Below, piece after piece: positions 45,514 to 52,928 of a stretch of 52,928 nucleotides of DNA. Within the stretch, counting starts at the first letter, position 1. Each line of letters opens with the position of its first letter. The translations under genes were made by a program, and so were the position numbers. Under the pieces are notes generated by a model. It saw only the letters and a list, made by a program, of their open reading frames with translations, was not told where the DNA came from and searched no databases. Source of the DNA: Oscillospiraceae bacterium (GTDB lineage: Bacteria; Bacillota; Clostridia; Oscillospirales; Oscillospiraceae); the NCBI GenBank assembly GCA_017624915.1, contig JAGAMC010000013.1:1-52928 (forward strand). The letters are read 5' to 3'.

Positions 45514-45567
45514 ACCAAATTACACTTCCTTCGCTCCGCAGCCCGCAGCTGTGGAAAATACGAACCT

Positions 45568-45882
45568 TCAGTCTGCCGCCTCGTCCATGGCCTCGATGAG
45601 AAAGCTCACCGGACGAAAGCCGTCATTGCAGGAGATCATAGCCGACCTTTTGTTCTTCATCCACCCGCCATAGAAGTCCTGCGCCCCATGGGCCAGCGCC
45701 ATGACAAAAGGTGAAAGGGACTGCCACGCGCTTTCGCAAAAGCCATCCGGCTTGTTCCAGCCGTCGGCGATGAAGACTCGGCCCACTTCCATGTCGCAGG
45801 CGTGCTCTATGGGGTTTTCATATTGGGCGATCAGATCGTCGTGCCGCACCATCTTCATTACAGTGATCCTGCACTTGGTCAT
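45568..45882 (-). CDS. TIGR04076 family protein
   Basis: 104 residues: MTKCRITVMK opening, KPDGFCESAWQSLSPFVMALAHG middle and ISCNDGFRPVSFLIEAM end, matching the small TIGR04076 family with conserved cysteines. Function is unknown; it has been seen as a stand-alone small domain in anaerobes. ATG 45882 is chosen for GGGGTGAGGG upstream. Confidence 0.8.
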   Translation of the reverse strand: MTKCRITVMKMVRHDDLIAQYENPIEHACDMEVGRVFIADGWNKPDGFCESAWQSLSPFVMALAHGAQDFYGGWMKNKRSAMISCNDGFRPVSFLIEAMDEAAD

Positions 45883-45937
45883 ACCCTCACCCCCGAATTG
45901 AATCTGTTCTGATTGTATCACGAGTACAGAAAAATAA

Positions 45938-45967
45938 AAAGCCTTGAAACCAAAGTTTCAAGGCTTT
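45938..45967 (-). terminator. Terminator of the interrupted tRNA-Thr gene
   Basis: A 13-bp stem (45938-45950 with 45955-45967, loop CAAA) followed leftward by a T-run. It remains beside the tRNA 3' fragment. Confidence 0.85.
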
Positions 45968-45968
45968 C

Positions 45969-46014
45969 TGGAGCTGCTGGGCGGATTCGAACCGCCGACC
46001 TCATCCTTACCAAG
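45969..46014 (-). tRNA. 3' half of tRNA-Thr(GGT), a tRNA attachment-site fragment
   Basis: Leftward sequence runs from the anticodon loop (TTGGTAA, anticodon GGT) through stem GGATG, variable AGGTC, T-arm GGCGG TTCGAAT CCGCC, acceptor strand CAGCAGC, T and encoded CCA. To the right of 46014 the expected 5' half is absent and unrelated AT-rich DNA begins. The fragment is the crossover remnant left when an element integrates at the 3' half of a tRNA gene. The intact tRNA-Thr should lie at the other island end, beyond the window. Confidence 0.88.
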
Positions 46015-46536
46015 CGATTTTTGCCGGTTTTTATAACAATTTTCGCTTGTTTTCAGTCGTTTTCATTCCGAACAACATCGTTTCCAGAACTTTCTTGAAG
46101 CACCGTCTCCGTTGTTTCCACGCCTGTCTGTGGTGGAACTGTGGTCAAGCAACGATTTGCGCAAACGATGTCTGCACAAATCTCATCAGTGCCGCACAGC
46201 GGAGAACACCTGCCATTCCGTGTGATTTCCCATCTTCATTCCGTGCGATTTTTCTTTTTGCTTGCAACCGGTACTACTGACCCGGCAATCGCAAGCAGAA
46301 CACAGTAATTTCTTCGAGAATTAATATGACCACAAAGAGGCACGATAATCGCATCATATTTTGCGCTGCTGTAAACAATAAGAGTCCGCTCCGTGCCATT
46401 CTATTGTTGGCCTCTCAATTTGAACCGTCCGGAAATTCCGGATAGTTGCGCTCTATAAATTACCTCCTGTGTCAGAATAATTTTAAGCTGGGGGCGAAAT
46501 GATGTCAGCTCTCATAGGAAATAAATCTACGTTGCA
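46015..46536. other. Non-coding end of the genomic island
   Basis: About 520 bases without a convincing gene. It holds a direct repeat (CATTCCGTGTGATTT 46214-46228 and CATTCCGTGCGATTT 46237-46251, 23-base period) and a palindrome TCCGGAAATTCCGGA (46428-46442). A start-less open frame of 60 codons (46056-46235, minus) could be an integrase remnant but is not convincing. Confidence 0.6.
46214..46251. repeat. Tandem 15-base direct repeat near the attachment site
   Basis: Two copies of CATTCCGTGYGATTT, 14 of 15 identical, spaced one to two helical turns apart and 200-240 bases from the tRNA fragment. Placement fits arm-type integrase binding sites; this is inference. Confidence 0.5.
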
Positions 46537-47238
46537 TTAACACAGTGGTACCGTTTCTATATCCTCATCGTTTGTCAGATTGCCGTCCCCGCTCACGGGA
46601 ATTATCTCGCCCAGATAGGTCGGGGCGGGTTTCAGAATGCTTGTCGCAAAATCCTTGTTGCGGGCAAGGCTCTCACGCAGCTCACGGTATGCCTGTCCCA
46701 CATAAGTATGATAATCTGCGGCAACGCCATACGCCTCCACACCCAAAGCATTGGCAATATGGAGCGCACGGTAGAGGTGATACTCTTGCGTGACAATGAT
46801 GATCTTATCCGCGGCAAACACATCTCTTGCCCGGAAGATGCTTTCATATGTAGAGAAGCCAGCGTGGTCCATGAAGATATCTTCAGAGGAGATTCCCTCC
46901 TCCATGGCCTCCAGCTTCATGGCTTTGACCTCGTTATAGTCCTTCTGGCCGTGGTCGCCGCTCATGAGCAGCTTCGGCGCCGCACCGGACTGGTACAGTT
47001 CAATGCCTCTGCGTAGCCGATCTGCCAGCATATCACTGGGACGGCCACTGTCGTGGACATAGCAGCCTAACACCAGGATGCAATCCACATCCGTCAGCTC
47101 TGCCGCCTCTTCAGGCGAAATAATCTGGTCAAAGGTGCTTTTCTTTACGTGGCCATTGATGCTGAAAATGGTAATGCCACCAATCAGAGCCAGACAGAGC
47201 AGCACAACGAAAAGGCGTTTCCATATTCGTTTTTTCAT
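46537..47238 (-). CDS. SanA/YdcF family membrane protein (DUF218)
   Basis: 233 residues. N-terminal signal anchor (about 8-27), then the DUF218 domain with DCILVLGCYVHDSGRPSDMLADRL, LLMSGDHG and IVTQEYHLYRAL blocks, as in SanA, linked to envelope barrier function. It sits 20 bases after the previous stop, last in a leftward run of nine genes, and ends in the non-coding island edge. Confidence 0.85.
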   Translation of the reverse strand: MKKRIWKRLFVVLLCLALIGGITIFSINGHVKKSTFDQIISPEEAAELTDVDCILVLGCYVHDSGRPSDMLADRLRRGIELYQSGAAPKLLMSGDHGQKDYNEVKAMKLEAMEEGISSEDIFMDHAGFSTYESIFRARDVFAADKIIIVTQEYHLYRALHIANALGVEAYGVAADYHTYVGQAYRELRESLARNKDFATSILKPAPTYLGEIIPVSGDGNLTNDEDIETVPLC

Positions 47239-47258
47239 GTCTACCGCCTTCCCTGTTT

Positions 47259-47681
47259 TTATAGATACAGTTCCGTCCCATAGTGGCAGCTCTGAAATTT
47301 GTCATCCAGAAACACATTGAAGAACGGAGTCATTTTGTTGTAGGTTTCAGTGTCAGCAGGCTTCGGCAGGCCAAGAAGCATCTGCACGAACTCCGGCGTC
47401 ACCGCACCGGTGATGATCTTACCGTACTGCCAATCATCTTCTTTCAGACTGCCATATTGGAGCGCCAGATCGATCCACTCGGTCTCTTCGGTCCAGCAGT
47501 GGATTTCGAAGGTCTTTGCTCCACCCAATGCCGCCGTGATATAGGACAGCCACTTGCTGTTGTCTGACTCTGAACGATCCAGAGTTACCTCTTCAAGTTC
47601 AATGGGTTCATCCGGGATAGGCGCAGGCTTGAGATCCATAATTGCATCGGACAGAGCATTCTTCAAATCTTTAAATACCAT
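47259..47681 (-). CDS. Unidentified 140-residue soluble protein
   Basis: No signal peptide or membrane helix. The N-terminus is acidic and proline-rich (APIPDEPIELEEV); the rest is mixed alpha/beta with many aromatics (EIHCWTEETEWIDLAL). No family was recognised. GGAGG precedes ATG 47681, and it starts 14 bases after the preceding coiled-coil protein gene, so it is part of the same transcript. Confidence 0.6.
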   Translation of the reverse strand: MVFKDLKNALSDAIMDLKPAPIPDEPIELEEVTLDRSESDNSKWLSYITAALGGAKTFEIHCWTEETEWIDLALQYGSLKEDDWQYGKIITGAVTPEFVQMLLGLPKPADTETYNKMTPFFNVFLDDKFQSCHYGTELYL

Positions 47682-47695
47682 GATGCGCCTCCAAT

Positions 47696-48691
47696 TTACC
47701 GATAATCAGCCTCATCCACTTCATAGAGAACATTTCCATCTGTGTCAAGGATCTGCTCAAACAAATCCCGCAGGCCAAAATAATCATCATCCACAGGTTC
47801 GCCCTTTTCATTCACAGCCCAATATTCCAATACAGTCCGATAGCGCAGGCCGTTACCGTCCACCACTTCGGCCAGCAGTTCAAGCGTGCTTCCGAAGGGG
47901 ATGTTGAACTCCCGATCAATCATGTGATAGAAGGACTCAGCTCCATCTACTTGTATGCCGGATGTTGGAGGAGGTGCCGGTTCTTCTTTTGCATTTTTTC
48001 TCTGGGTGCTCTCCGTACTGGTCAGAGGGATCTCGGTACGACCAACTTCTACACCATCCAGTTCCTCAACAAGCGTGACCGACCGTACATCAATGACCTG
48101 TCCTTTTCCCTCTACGTTAATCCGGACTTCTCCCTCACGGTGCCAGGTATAGACACCATTTGCAGCCGTACCACGACCGCTGCCGCCAAGTCGCCCATGA
48201 ACACTCGGCAACAATTCATAGCGGGGAGACCACTGCTCATCCAGCGTCTCGGTCCGGATCACATCATCCTCGCGGAACTCCACCTTTTCAACTCGCGCGT
48301 CTTCAAATACCGGCAGGTCGAGCTGAATCGTATAGGTACCGTTGGCGAGCTCCATGGGATAAGCCTTGCCATTGACAGTCAGGAATGCCTCAGTCACACC
48401 CGGCTGATGCTCTTTGGGTGTCACACTGCCACTCAGTACGAAGGTCTTATCTGCCAGATCCAACTCGTCCAGAGAAAAGTTTGTCTGCGTCAGAATGCTG
48501 GCTTCCTGCTCCATCAGTTCCTGCATACGGGAAAGTGCCGCACTCTGATTGGACTGCAGCATGGAGACGCTATTATTCAATTGGTTCTCCAGTTGGTGGA
48601 TCTCGCTTTGCAAATTAGAGATACGAAACTGTGATACAACAGCAATGACAAGTGCCAGCACCGTCGCAACGGTTGATAAATGTTTTTTCAT
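47696..48691 (-). CDS. Anchored coiled-coil extracytoplasmic protein, unidentified
   Basis: 331 residues. Single N-terminal membrane anchor (about 5-22), then a coiled coil (25-68, SNLQSEIHQLENQLNNS), then beta-rich domains with repeated charged strands, probably outside the membrane. No catalytic motif is seen and no family recognised. Its ATG overlaps the stop of the DUF1835 gene (ATGA), so the two are translationally coupled and may interact. Confidence 0.65.
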   Translation of the reverse strand: MKKHLSTVATVLALVIAVVSQFRISNLQSEIHQLENQLNNSVSMLQSNQSAALSRMQELMEQEASILTQTNFSLDELDLADKTFVLSGSVTPKEHQPGVTEAFLTVNGKAYPMELANGTYTIQLDLPVFEDARVEKVEFREDDVIRTETLDEQWSPRYELLPSVHGRLGGSGRGTAANGVYTWHREGEVRINVEGKGQVIDVRSVTLVEELDGVEVGRTEIPLTSTESTQRKNAKEEPAPPPTSGIQVDGAESFYHMIDREFNIPFGSTLELLAEVVDGNGLRYRTVLEYWAVNEKGEPVDDDYFGLRDLFEQILDTDGNVLYEVDEADYR

Positions 48692-49653
48692 AAAGCACCT
48701 GCTTTCCTCAGCTTCTGCCGGTAAACCGGATGATCAGACGGAGCACGCTCAACAATCTCAAGCTTACCCTCAGCAATCATTTTATCGATTCGCTGTGCGA
48801 CCCATGCGTCGCCAATGCCCAGCTGATACTTGCCCAAAACATTTCCAATCACGAAAGCCTCATTGAACTCCTCTGGTTGGGCGATGATTTCACGAAGGAT
48901 GAAGCTGTCGTAGATATCTTCCGATGCGCTTTGGAGCTGGCCGTTCAGGAATACACGCAACGGCGCATTCTCCTCTTTGAGCTGACTCCACTTGGTCGCG
49001 CAGAGGGAGAGAAACGCGGGCTGCGTTTCCTGCTGCAGGGGGAGATAGCGACCCCATTCACCGGGGCCGATCTCACCCCAACCGTTGCGCATGGACACTG
49101 TATTCTCTCCCGTATATTCCCACTCAGGCAGCTTGACCAGGTAGATTGAACCTCTTTGTTTCAAGGGACGAAGCTGCGCCAAAATCCAGTACATACCACA
49201 CATCTCGTCCGGATTATGGCTATACCAGACCCGGATAGTCTCTCCTGCGGAGCAGCGCTCTAAAATCGCGGCCAGCGCAGTTTGGGCGTCTTGAAGTTTC
49301 TTGTCGATCATCTGCGCTGCATTCTCTCTTGGCCAAACAGCCATAAATTTTTCCATGACTTCGCGCCGTTGAAAACCAATCCCGTTTTCTGATATCTCGC
49401 CCACGCTCCAAGCAAGTGAAATGAAATAGAGGTCTTCCTGCCTACCGCCCAGAGGGATGGCATTCTCCCAATCACGTTGCGCTCGCTCTTCCGCACGTTT
49501 TTGGGCTTCTTGCATCTGGGCCTTGGTGGGCTCGGCACCGCCTTGACCACGGAGAAATACCGATGTAGCTGCGCCATGGTATTTCCCAACGCCATAGTGC
49601 TGCGCCACCTTCAAGCTGCCATATGCGCTCTCACTGAAAACAACTTCGATCAT
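48688..49653 (-). CDS. DUF1835/DUF3658 domain protein
   Basis: 321 residues. N-terminal DUF1835 block MIEVVFSESAYGSLKVAQHYG and a middle SLAWSVGEISENGIG region; C-terminal DUF3658-like helical part (GKYQLGIGDAWVAQRIDKMI). Cytoplasmic; biochemical role unknown. Members are widespread in Firmicutes, often in stress or accessory loci. GAGGTT-type ribosome site before ATG 49653. Confidence 0.8.
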   Translation of the reverse strand: MIEVVFSESAYGSLKVAQHYGVGKYHGAATSVFLRGQGGAEPTKAQMQEAQKRAEERAQRDWENAIPLGGRQEDLYFISLAWSVGEISENGIGFQRREVMEKFMAVWPRENAAQMIDKKLQDAQTALAAILERCSAGETIRVWYSHNPDEMCGMYWILAQLRPLKQRGSIYLVKLPEWEYTGENTVSMRNGWGEIGPGEWGRYLPLQQETQPAFLSLCATKWSQLKEENAPLRVFLNGQLQSASEDIYDSFILREIIAQPEEFNEAFVIGNVLGKYQLGIGDAWVAQRIDKMIAEGKLEIVERAPSDHPVYRQKLRKAGAL

Positions 49654-49664
49654 GTTGGAACCTC

Positions 49665-50306
49665 TTACTCAAAAAGATATCTACTTAAAATGTCGGTATA
49701 GATTTCTGGTATTGCATAGCAGGTGATCGTCCCCTCACTGGCTGGTTGACCTACCGTGAGATACCAATGCCCGTCTATGGTTCCCATATAACCAATGTAC
49801 TCTGTGGCAACAGGACAACCTTCATAACCTGCGTAAAGCAAACGCATATGTTGATTATCCTTCAGCTGAAAGATACCGTCAGTAACATACTCAAAATTAG
49901 CTTCTGCACCGGCAAGAATCTCAGTTACAGCCTGCTTAAACTCCTCATCGGCAATGTATTCTCCGTTCCAGGAAAGCGTCGTGATCTCTCCGGAGCGTGG
50001 AATTTGATAATCTTCCCTCACCAGAAGGCTCTGGTCAAGGAAGCTCCGCATGACAATAAAGGTGTGAGTGTCATCTTCCTCCACCTCATTGATCTGCCAT
50101 CCATCATTCGTTTTCGCAATGGTCTTTCCCTCACTATACTCGCCAGAGGCAGGGACATATAGGGCATTGTTCCAGTACACGCCTTCGCCCCTTCGCACAC
50201 CGCTGTGATCAAATACTATGATGCCATTTGCAAACAGGAAAGCAAGTAGCATCGCCATTGCCACGACTATGCCAATCAGCATTTTAGCTTTTTCCTGTTT
50301 TTGCAT
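49665..50306 (-). CDS. Anchored extracytoplasmic protein, unidentified
   Basis: 213 residues with one N-terminal membrane helix (about 9-32, LIGIVVAMAMLLAFLFANGI) and a roughly 180-residue outer domain, beta-rich (WYLTVGQPASEGTITCYAIPEIY near the end, quoted in part). No family was recognised. AGGAAGTGAG precedes the ATG. It ends 11 bases before the DUF1835 gene. Confidence 0.65.
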   Translation of the reverse strand: MQKQEKAKMLIGIVVAMAMLLAFLFANGIIVFDHSGVRRGEGVYWNNALYVPASGEYSEGKTIAKTNDGWQINEVEEDDTHTFIVMRSFLDQSLLVREDYQIPRSGEITTLSWNGEYIADEEFKQAVTEILAGAEANFEYVTDGIFQLKDNQHMRLLYAGYEGCPVATEYIGYMGTIDGHWYLTVGQPASEGTITCYAIPEIYTDILSRYLFE

Positions 50307-50334
50307 CGAGGCTCACTTCCTATTTAAAATTGGA

Positions 50335-50355
50335 GCAGCGGCAACTGACCGCTGC
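50335..50355 (-). terminator. Weak terminator after the EcsC gene
   Basis: GCAGCGG / CCGCTGC around a 7-base loop, followed leftward by TCCAATTTTAAA. It lies in the 125-base gap that divides the nine-gene run into two parts. Confidence 0.5.
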
Positions 50356-50431
50356 CGCTACTCGCAGTCGCAGCTTAATCGTACTATGGATTTCCAATCA
50401 GTTCATGTAGATTGTGTAAACGATAGATTTT

Positions 50432-51259
50432 TCAAATAGATCTCAAAGAAATTCCACTGCGCTGGGCCACTGCCAATAGGTATCGCTTCTGATATTTGAG
50501 CTGCACATAACGCATGACCATGTTGTAATAGATGGGATTAGCCGCTCCGCCGATGACACCCACAAGCGGGAACCCCTGCACGAATTTCAAGAGCAACATA
50601 TCCACCGCAAAGGCACTTCCCGTCTTCTGAATCTGAGCCAACACTTCATCATCACCAGCCTGCGGCATCTCCTCGATCATGCCGTCCACCCGTGCATTCT
50701 TTACAGCAAAGGCGTGACCTTTTGTAAGAGTAGCTTCCATCATGCGAAGGATAAACAGCCGCTCCTCCGGGGTATCGTAGGAAAAGCCATAGCTCAGGGC
50801 AGTTTCATAAATACCTTTGAGCAGCATACCGACAAACACGACAATATCAGGCAGACCAATGCCCAGTGCTCCAAGGCCAATTCCCTCCACAGTTGTCAAT
50901 GCAGTATTTGCCAGACCGGTTCGACCGGCATTTCGCTTGACCTGCTTCAGTTCCTTACGGCCGCCTTTGACCTGCACGGCATAGTCCTGAACAGAATACG
51001 TTTCTTCAAGATTCTGGCGGTTGTAGGTTTTTTCAATGACCCCTACGCCCTGAGTAAATACCACGGAAAACGCCTTGCTGAAGGCCGCCTCCAGGCTGTG
51101 ATAGACTTTCTCCGGCACTTTCTTTTCCAGATCCGTTTTCCAACGGGGCGCTGTCGCCTTCATGGCGCTCTGCTTTAGCTGCGTTTCTTTTTTCAGCACG
51201 GCAGCATACTCTTTCTCAAGAGCAGCACGCTTTTTATCTTTTTTCTGAAATAACACCAT
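50432..51259 (-). CDS. EcsC family protein
   Basis: 275 residues. Basic N-terminal coiled segment, then the EcsC-type region: glycine-rich TVEGIGLGALGIGLPDIVVFVGMLLKGIYE (quoted in part: GIGLGALGIGLPDIVVF) and GFPLVGVIGGAANPIYYN near the C-terminus. EcsC proteins accompany ABC exporters or stress loci; function is unknown. ATG 51259 leaves 10 bases after the DUF4177 stop; the longer frame from 51286 would overlap it. Confidence 0.82.
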   Translation of the reverse strand: MVLFQKKDKKRAALEKEYAAVLKKETQLKQSAMKATAPRWKTDLEKKVPEKVYHSLEAAFSKAFSVVFTQGVGVIEKTYNRQNLEETYSVQDYAVQVKGGRKELKQVKRNAGRTGLANTALTTVEGIGLGALGIGLPDIVVFVGMLLKGIYETALSYGFSYDTPEERLFILRMMEATLTKGHAFAVKNARVDGMIEEMPQAGDDEVLAQIQKTGSAFAVDMLLLKFVQGFPLVGVIGGAANPIYYNMVMRYVQLKYQKRYLLAVAQRSGISLRSI

Positions 51260-51269
51260 AGTTCTCCGC

Positions 51270-51476
51270 TTATGCTTCTTTCTCAAAAATCAGATCCAGT
51301 TCCTGAATATGGCCTGTTCCACGCTGCTTTGTCGGCATATATCCAACATATCGCCATCCTGCTTCTGCGCTGCGATTGATGATCGACTGATAATCTCCAA
51401 TGCCGTAGATATTGCCGGAGCCAAATCCCCAGCCGCCGAAATCACAGCTCACCGTTTCATACTCGTATTGATACAT
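51270..51476 (-). CDS. DUF4177-like small protein
   Basis: 68 residues: MYQYEYETVSCDFGG opening, EAGWRYVGYMPTK and IQELDLIFEKE blocks, the usual compact alpha/beta DUF4177 fold. Function is unknown. ATG 51476 follows GGGAGG. Confidence 0.78.
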   Translation of the reverse strand: MYQYEYETVSCDFGGWGFGSGNIYGIGDYQSIINRSAEAGWRYVGYMPTKQRGTGHIQELDLIFEKEA

Positions 51477-51497
51477 TATTTTCAATCCTCCCGGAGT

Positions 51498-52481
51498 TCA
51501 GTTATTTGCGCTATTAGATGCCGCGGCACTGGCTGCAATCGCAGCACACATAGCCGTCTGTTGCGCGATGATGAGTGAGATCGTGCTGCTGACCGCCGCC
51601 GCCTGCATTGAGGTATTCTGATCCAGATAATCACTGGTCACGATCAAGCCGGCGTGCATCAGGCGCTGGCGCTTGGTCATACCCAACATGCCATATCCCC
51701 TTTGACTGGCCAGGAACTCTGCCACCTGCACGATATCATCTGCAATCGTATCCAAATCAGCCGGGAGCATTGCCAGAACGCCCAGCGTAGCAAGTTCATA
51801 GCCAGTACCGTATTTATAGCCTTGGTCTTTCAGCTTATAAAAGAGTTTCATTGCACGGTTGCATTTCATCTCAGTGTCGCCCTCACAAAGAGCAAGCACA
51901 TGGCTTAGCGATTGAACTGCATTGCTGGAAAAGAACTGCGGCTTGAGAATATCGAAACATTCCTCGGTGTTTTGAACGATAACTTCATCAGAAGCATTGG
52001 ATAATGCCAAGAGCGCTGCGAATACGCTATCCTCTCCAGAGGTAAGGAAAGGATGTTCCTGTTTCATCAAATCATAGATACGGCGCGTTCTACGCGCAAC
52101 AACTTCATAATGGACAGGCTCGATGTAGTCTGAAATGGTCATGGATGCCAGAGGGAGATAGGTGGACGAGAAGAAATGCTGCTTCAGCAATTCATATACA
52201 GCCAAAGCCTTTTTTAATTTCTCTTCAGGATCACTGCTGACTGCCATCATAGAAATCATGGGCAGTTTGACATAGTTACGGAAATTAGAGAAAAATCCAG
52301 TGTTTTCTTTCAGAATATCTCCGCACATCTCCAGGCGCTCTCTGTCGGCGGTTACACGCTTATCAACAAAGACCGCTGCTGCCACAGGATAGATATAGGA
52401 ACTTCCCCAAAAGAACGTTTCTTTTATCGTGTCTCTGCTCTCAATAAAGCTGTTACACAGGGATTGCAATGATGTTCTCAT
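51498..52481 (-). CDS. DUF4003 family protein
   Basis: 327 residues, all-helical, resembling DUF4003 (FSNFRNYVKLPMISMMAV, SGEDSVFAALLAL, YKYGTGYELATLGVLAML, repeated helix hairpins; quoted in parts). The C-terminal tail is an Ala/Ser-rich helix (AAIAASAAASNSANN). Soluble, unknown role; often found near tellurite/stress-type genes, which is not evident here. ATG 52481 has AGTGAGG upstream; GTG 52493 is in frame but less likely. Confidence 0.78.
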   Translation of the reverse strand: MRTSLQSLCNSFIESRDTIKETFFWGSSYIYPVAAAVFVDKRVTADRERLEMCGDILKENTGFFSNFRNYVKLPMISMMAVSSDPEEKLKKALAVYELLKQHFFSSTYLPLASMTISDYIEPVHYEVVARRTRRIYDLMKQEHPFLTSGEDSVFAALLALSNASDEVIVQNTEECFDILKPQFFSSNAVQSLSHVLALCEGDTEMKCNRAMKLFYKLKDQGYKYGTGYELATLGVLAMLPADLDTIADDIVQVAEFLASQRGYGMLGMTKRQRLMHAGLIVTSDYLDQNTSMQAAAVSSTISLIIAQQTAMCAAIAASAAASNSANN

Positions 52482-52543
52482 AGTAAACCTCACTGGTCAC
52501 AGGCGTTAGGCCTTGCTCCCAACGCCCCGTTGCTTGATACATT

Positions 52544-52928
52544 TCAGTTAAGAGGCAAGCTCTCGATGGCTGCACCGGCCTCACCAAAGAATGCCTCCAG
52601 CGATTCATGAGAGCTGGCGTCAAACCCGTCATTGAGAATAAAGGTGCCGGATGCGGAAACGCTGTTGTCCTCACCCCTCACGAAAGAGACGGCTGCTGGG
52701 CAGGCGTTTTCATACACATAGAGATAGATTGCGTCGCCATCGCCCTCAGAGCTGACGAAGGTTTTCCCTGCAGCGCAGATGGTCGTGGCAGCAAGGGTGG
52801 TGGCTCCGTTCTGGGCATTGATCTGCGTGATCAGTGCGGCGCCAAATGCTTTCTGACGCATAGCGGTTTTCAGGTTTTCGGAAAGGCCCTCCAGCCCGCT
52901 CAGCATATCCCACGCCTCCATGGCCTTC
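52544..52928 (-). CDS. Unidentified protein, C-terminal part
   Basis: The frame is open to the right window edge, so the start may lie outside; an ATG at 52921 is internal or the true start, with no visible ribosome site in the 7 bases left. 125-128 residues are visible: a helical start (GLSENLKTAMRQKAFGAALITQ) followed by a beta-rich domain (GKTFVSSEGDGDAIYLYVYENACPAAVSF, quoted in part). No family was recognised. It heads the leftward island gene run as far as can be seen. Confidence 0.5.
   Translation of the reverse strand, partial: KAMEAWDMLSGLEGLSENLKTAMRQKAFGAALITQINAQNGATTLAATTICAAGKTFVSSEGDGDAIYLYVYENACPAAVSFVRGEDNSVSASGTFILNDGFDASSHESLEAFFGEAGAAIESLPLN

Follow-up and report, generated by a model that had tools for sequence, protein, structure and literature searches.

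Integrative and mobilizable elements (IMEs) and cis-mobilizable elements (CIMEs), as described in PMC5704250, accrete in tandem at the 3′ ends of tRNA genes and carry varied cargo. SanA of Escherichia coli K-12, an anchored DUF218 protein, works in the periplasm on peptidoglycan synthesis and needs T125, H149, and E182 for its function, according to PMC12176290, and is linked to lipid II supply in PMC13251401. Here, we analyzed the window, a 52,928-base stretch from the gut-type Clostridia genome of an Oscillospiraceae bacterium; it is the entire contig C3 of a draft genome of 1.71 Mb in 49 contigs (96.6% complete). Its last part, positions 46537–52928, carries nine co-oriented open reading frames (ORFs) on the minus strand, including a SanA-like gene. 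Our analysis makes it likely that this run is mixed cargo of an integrative element inserted in the 3′ end of tRNA-Thr(GGT), probably lying at the integrase-distal end of that element. The run looks like ordinary cargo of a common island kind and not a new nine-part system, and its one mildly interesting part is a gene pair encoding proteins of 331 and 140 amino acids (aa).

The resemblance to IMEs and CIMEs lies in the tRNA 3′-end insertion, the tandem accretion, and the varied cargo, and the arrays of relatives of the window's element contain integrases and one relaxase. The window's element differs in that its assembled part holds neither an integrase nor a relaxase.

The tRNA-Thr(GGT) attachment site and the elements behind it

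The left edge of the island consists of an attachment-site (att) copy followed by an element end that is common to other elements:

45936–45969, minus strand: terminator-like hairpin with 15 pairs, adjacent to the tRNA 3′ fragment, found by a terminator scan and lying inside the stretch common to relatives
45969–46014, minus strand: 3′ fragment of tRNA-Thr(GGT), the attachment-site copy and left island edge, recognized with ARAGORN on relatives' loci
46015–46148, no strand: conserved left-end sequence of the element, defined by identity to four genomes (G024, G059, G055, and G007)

The search pattern for the tRNA fragment was 45981–46014, and the left bound of the fragment was placed where it is because its core falls within ARAGORN tRNA-Thr(ggt) genes in the loci of seven relatives. 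No complete tRNA was found within the window. A small plus-strand ORF at 45913–46098, with GRIRTADLILTK, reads the tRNA 3′ end in antisense and is probably a false gene.

The chromosomal side of this junction is preserved in one relative, G024, where the same left flank (antiporter 67.5% and ECF component 81.4% identical) is followed by the att copy and the left end at 86% identity over 214 bp, a stretch comprising the hairpin/tRNA stretch and the conserved left end, after which the contig ends. The left end also recurs, at 69–76% identity, in three other genomes, each time with differing cargo behind it. In G059 this cargo includes HsdM, the methyltransferase of a type I restriction-modification system, and in G055 it includes CotH and DUF4956. 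Two elements with the common left end were found in G007, the first carrying a CAP protein and the second a CAP look-alike (recognized by eye) with a type III restriction-modification methyltransferase further along. Since the window and these three relatives differ in cargo behind the same element end, an operon-like run of uncharacterized genes can be island cargo assembled from separate genes.

When positions 45560–46540 were used as a query, 59 of 63 same-genus genomes gave a match, many of the matches listed comprising only 31–36 bases inside the tRNA. In several of these genomes, co-oriented copies of the hairpin and tRNA stretch recur at distances of 6–21 kb. At loci from seven genomes, an att copy coincides with an intact tRNA-Thr(ggt); in five genomes (G007, G055, G017, G020, and G022), the intact tRNA stands at the right end with further copies to its left, and in loci L119 and L126 it is the sole copy in the fetched stretch. 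Three tested array proteins proved to be phage integrases by Pfam, and one element carried a relaxase. The genus seems to use the tRNA-Thr(GGT) site as a hot spot. The att-like tandem copies lie in L108–L110 (G007), L116 (G055), L117–L118 (G017), and L122 (G020), where the arrays hold integrases and cargo, for example, a type III methyltransferase. None of the genes of the nine-gene run was found in the 20 array loci.

From these arrangements in relatives, we infer that a tyrosine integrase encoded at the far, unassembled end would drive recombination between the element and the 3′ end of the tRNA, and that repeated insertion would stack elements in tandem. When an array integrase was compared with the window's own genome, its three longest matches were 26–30% identical, lay on other contigs, and were unlinked to the element. 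The GC content at third codon positions (GC3) of the nine genes is 0.46–0.64, compared with a host mean of 0.735 (standard deviation 0.087, range 0.55–0.88) in 26 mechanically picked ORFs; the run is shifted from the host in this respect, yet the ranges overlap.

Content and organization of the nine-gene run

The run comprises the following features, in the order of their coordinates:

46537–47238, minus strand: SanA-like DUF218 protein, 233 aa, with an N-terminal hydrophobic segment (Pfam, NCBIfam, alignment to E. coli SanA)
47259–47681, minus strand: 140-aa soluble protein of no named family (Pfam, genome search)
47696–48691, minus strand: 331-aa protein anchored at its N terminus, with a long helix (residues 2–63 of the model) and then beta-rich domains (structure model)
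48688–49653, minus strand: DUF1835 + DUF3658 protein (Pfam)
49665–50306, minus strand: 213-aa single-pass protein of no named family (Pfam, hydropathy)
50307–50431, minus strand: 125-nucleotide (nt) gap with a 13-bp hairpin (fold z −2.87)
50432–51259, minus strand: EcsC family protein, likely start ATG 51259, longest frame from TTG 51286
51270–51485, minus strand: DUF4177 protein, start TTG 51485 or ATG 51476
51498–52493, minus strand: DUF4003 protein, start GTG 52493 or ATG 52481
52544–52927, minus strand: 127-aa ORF truncated by the end of the contig, with no match to a family above cut-off (Pfam)

A first-pass annotation had described nine genes pointing to the attachment site, and all nine ORFs were indeed found on the minus strand, directed toward the 3′ fragment of tRNA-Thr and its end at 46014. 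Because the window ends where the contig ends, the ninth gene is incomplete and the run holds at least nine genes. The families named in that annotation were confirmed by Pfam matches above the gathering scores for DUF218 of the SanA/YdcF type (E 1.1e-24; 87.3 bits vs a cut-off of 27.6), EcsC (E 2.4e-37), and DUF4003 (E 8.5e-92), as well as for DUF1835, DUF3658, and DUF4177; the 140-, 331-, 213-, and 127-aa proteins had no Pfam match above cut-off. The intergenic gaps, from the SanA-like gene onward, are 20, 14, −4, 11, 125, 10, 21, and 65 nt, and the tight spacing claimed earlier thus describes most of the run but not its 125-nt gap. The reported ATGA overlap, formed by the stop of the DUF1835 + DUF3658 gene and the start of the gene for the 331-aa protein, was located at 48688–48691.

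The hairpin in the 125-nt gap may mark where an upstream transcription unit ends. This division into two units is only a suggestion, because a simple terminator scan did not list the hairpin and the promoter and terminator counts in the scan were at chance level. Judged from the gaps and this one hairpin, the first unit would probably run toward the att site as 127 aa, DUF4003, DUF4177, and EcsC, and the second as 213 aa, DUF1835/DUF3658, 331 aa, 140 aa, and SanA-like.

For the 140-aa gene, rough Nei–Gojobori estimates of the ratio of nonsynonymous to synonymous substitution rates (dN/dS) came to 0.09 and 0.12, and the 331-aa gene gave 0.14, at dS values that had already reached 1.2–1.3; for one part of the 331-aa gene and for the EcsC end, dS was saturated, with dN of 0.18 and 0.19. 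By this measure, the 140-aa and 331-aa genes appear to be under purifying selection, and these two usable estimates, together with the open reading frames, speak against plain decay of the cargo, an outcome that the first-pass annotation had named as refuting its reading.

Kyte–Doolittle profiles placed an N-terminal hydrophobic segment in each of the SanA-like, 331-aa, and 213-aa proteins and internal hydrophobic segments in the EcsC protein. The latter matches its family (PF12787) over the full length but differs in having no transporter partner among the window's nine genes by Pfam. In alignment with E. coli K-12 SanA, the SanA-like protein shows 30% identity, and its T130, H154, and E189 fall opposite T125, H149, and E182 of the E. 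coli protein. Alignment and profile thus place the SanA-like protein in the DUF218 superfamily with a putative catalytic Thr/His/Glu triad kept. It was not filed as SanA, because its score of 109.4 bits did not reach the cut-off of 363 of the NCBIfam SanA equivalog PRK10834.1. Its host belongs to a family whose named members here are Eubacteriales/Oscillospiraceae drafts and presumably lacks the outer-membrane setting of E. coli. The protein may, nevertheless, work like SanA and would then most likely act on peptidoglycan synthesis from outside the membrane, in the manner of the E. coli protein. By this analogy, it is the sole member of the run with a documented role to borrow, namely a link to the envelope.

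In the model of the 331-aa protein (mean pLDDT, the predicted local distance difference test score, 77.7), the structure matches are common sandwiches, and the model of the 140-aa protein was too poor for use. The 331-aa protein, with its anchored coil and beta-rich outer domains, probably pairs with the cytosolic 140-aa protein in a two-gene module. If this module is real, it would provide an entry point for studying an anchored family of proteins with no known role.

Recurrence of the gene set and competing explanations

Genome-wide searches were run for all of the proteins apart from sanA, DUF4177, and the 127-aa ORF, in differing sets of 199–400 genomes sampled from a larger group. Counting the window's own genome, relatives were found in 8 of 199 genomes for DUF4003, 8 of 400 for the 213-aa protein, 32 of 400 for EcsC, 44 of 400 for the 331-aa protein (mostly weak), 21 of 270 for the DUF1835 protein, and 14 of 260 for the 140-aa protein. 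Wider stretches were fetched from 16 of the 31 other genomes with EcsC, 7 of 7 with DUF4003, 5 of 43 with the 331-aa protein, and 4 of 7 with the 213-aa protein, and from two plasmid records only for the DUF1835 protein. Altogether, 55 loci (35 around relatives and the 20 array loci) were queried with all nine proteins by phmmer, plus a profile where there was more than one match.

No two of the nine genes co-occur in these 55 loci, except the 331-aa and 140-aa pair. Six families were each seen only in the loci fetched for them or, for the 140-aa gene, beside a 331-aa gene, and sanA, DUF4177, and the 127-aa ORF were without any match in the 55 loci. The pair stands together in L043 and in L045 (where the 331-aa gene is split with L046), and its 14-nt gap is kept in all three genera, the window's and two others. 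Inspection of the hit tables of the genome searches by eye gave no other pair within about 110 kb on one contig. In G331, relatives of four of the nine genes are spread over five contigs, and in the loci viewed by eye, relatives of the 213-aa, DUF1835, and 140-aa genes adjoin unrelated genes; those of the 140-aa gene, viewed in nine loci, do so for the most part. In the genomes sampled, the recurrence of the families together, which the first-pass annotation had set as a check beforehand, was limited to this pair; the otherwise scattered occurrence agrees with what it had said would refute its reading, and its idea of one cassette with one function was not supported. Its placement of the run as island cargo beside an att site, on the other hand, is borne out by the tRNA 3′ fragment, the relatives' arrays, and the left end in G024.

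The likely origin of the run as mixed cargo draws its support from the att copy, the G024 left end, the relatives' arrays and their varied cargo, the GC3 shift, and the lack of co-location; the genes would mostly be loners of the host's family, retained one by one. Several points weigh against it. The far end of the element, its integrase, and its intact tRNA were not found in the assembly, and the shared direction, small gaps, and ATGA overlap are traits of a true operon. In addition, the 331/140 pair in G207 stops at one contig edge while EcsC (72% identical over 64 aa) starts at another, so these genes could be neighbors in a partial cluster, and, given the sampled genomes and partly fetched loci, the analysis may have overlooked a rare intact cassette.

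A rival reading is that the five genes from the 213-aa protein through DUF1835/DUF3658, 331 aa, and 140 aa to the SanA-like protein form a dedicated envelope-protection operon, in which anchored sensors would respond to damage to the wall or membrane and the SanA-like protein would tune the flow of peptidoglycan precursors. Their shared direction, ATGA overlap, and gaps of 11–20 nt, the N-terminal hydrophobic segments of three of the proteins, the intact SanA triad, and the conserved spacing of the 331/140 pair all fit such an operon, which we nevertheless consider unlikely, as the 55 loci show no further pairing and the relatives viewed sit amid unrelated genes. The envelope link proposed earlier stands for the SanA-like protein, with its conserved triad, and extends to the anchored proteins by topology only. 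It is rather improbable, too, that the anchored coiled-coil 331-aa protein and its cytosolic 140-aa partner are the core of a new mobile module for envelope sensing, with a SanA-like peptidoglycan regulator and a second anchored protein added by the island.

The type I and type III methyltransferases behind the same left end in G059 and G007 would suit an anti-phage defence system so far unrecognized, in a slot that also accepts restriction-modification genes. These two elements were the only positive evidence for the defence role that the first-pass annotation had raised. PADLOC gave zero model matches at E up to 1 for all nine proteins, consistent with that annotation's remark that no known defence gene is seen; Pfam showed no nuclease or nucleoside triphosphatase (NTPase) domain above cut-off among them, and the gene set is not conserved, all of which makes such a system highly improbable. 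Pfam likewise showed no relaxase or conjugation genes among the nine proteins of this element, which runs off the contig. Lastly, the junction could be an assembly chimera with the run coming from another organism, as a 49-contig draft and the shifted composition might allow; the flank, att copy, and left end are the same in G024, and we regard a chimera as highly improbable.

Relatives of single genes in other settings

The alignment of the 331-aa protein, used in a pattern-based scan of an 84,980-species collection, led to four confirmed relatives, all metagenome-assembled: one from Eubacteriales, two from Oscillospiraceae, and one from Ruminiclostridium, two of the four carrying the labels sheep colon and goat rectum. 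At L041:14998–15960, on an 861-kb Vescimonas fastidiosa replicon, lies a DUF3658 gene with 56% identity to that of the window. Because this gene adjoins TnpV and lies near conjugation genes, the DUF3658 gene family may move on its own.

Two proteins without a Pfam match, at L145:160–765 and L159:1–1458, are 42% alike over 171 aa; next to them stands, in one genome, a DUF1835 relative and, in another, a 140-aa relative. Another unnamed protein (L155:423–872 and L156:2522–2968, 65% identity) was found near 140-aa relatives in two genera, and in L156 the 140-aa-like part is the end of a 322-aa ORF. Finally, a sigma-factor-like ORF at L046:744–1693 seems interrupted and, by eye, resembles a sigK gene into which an element has inserted.

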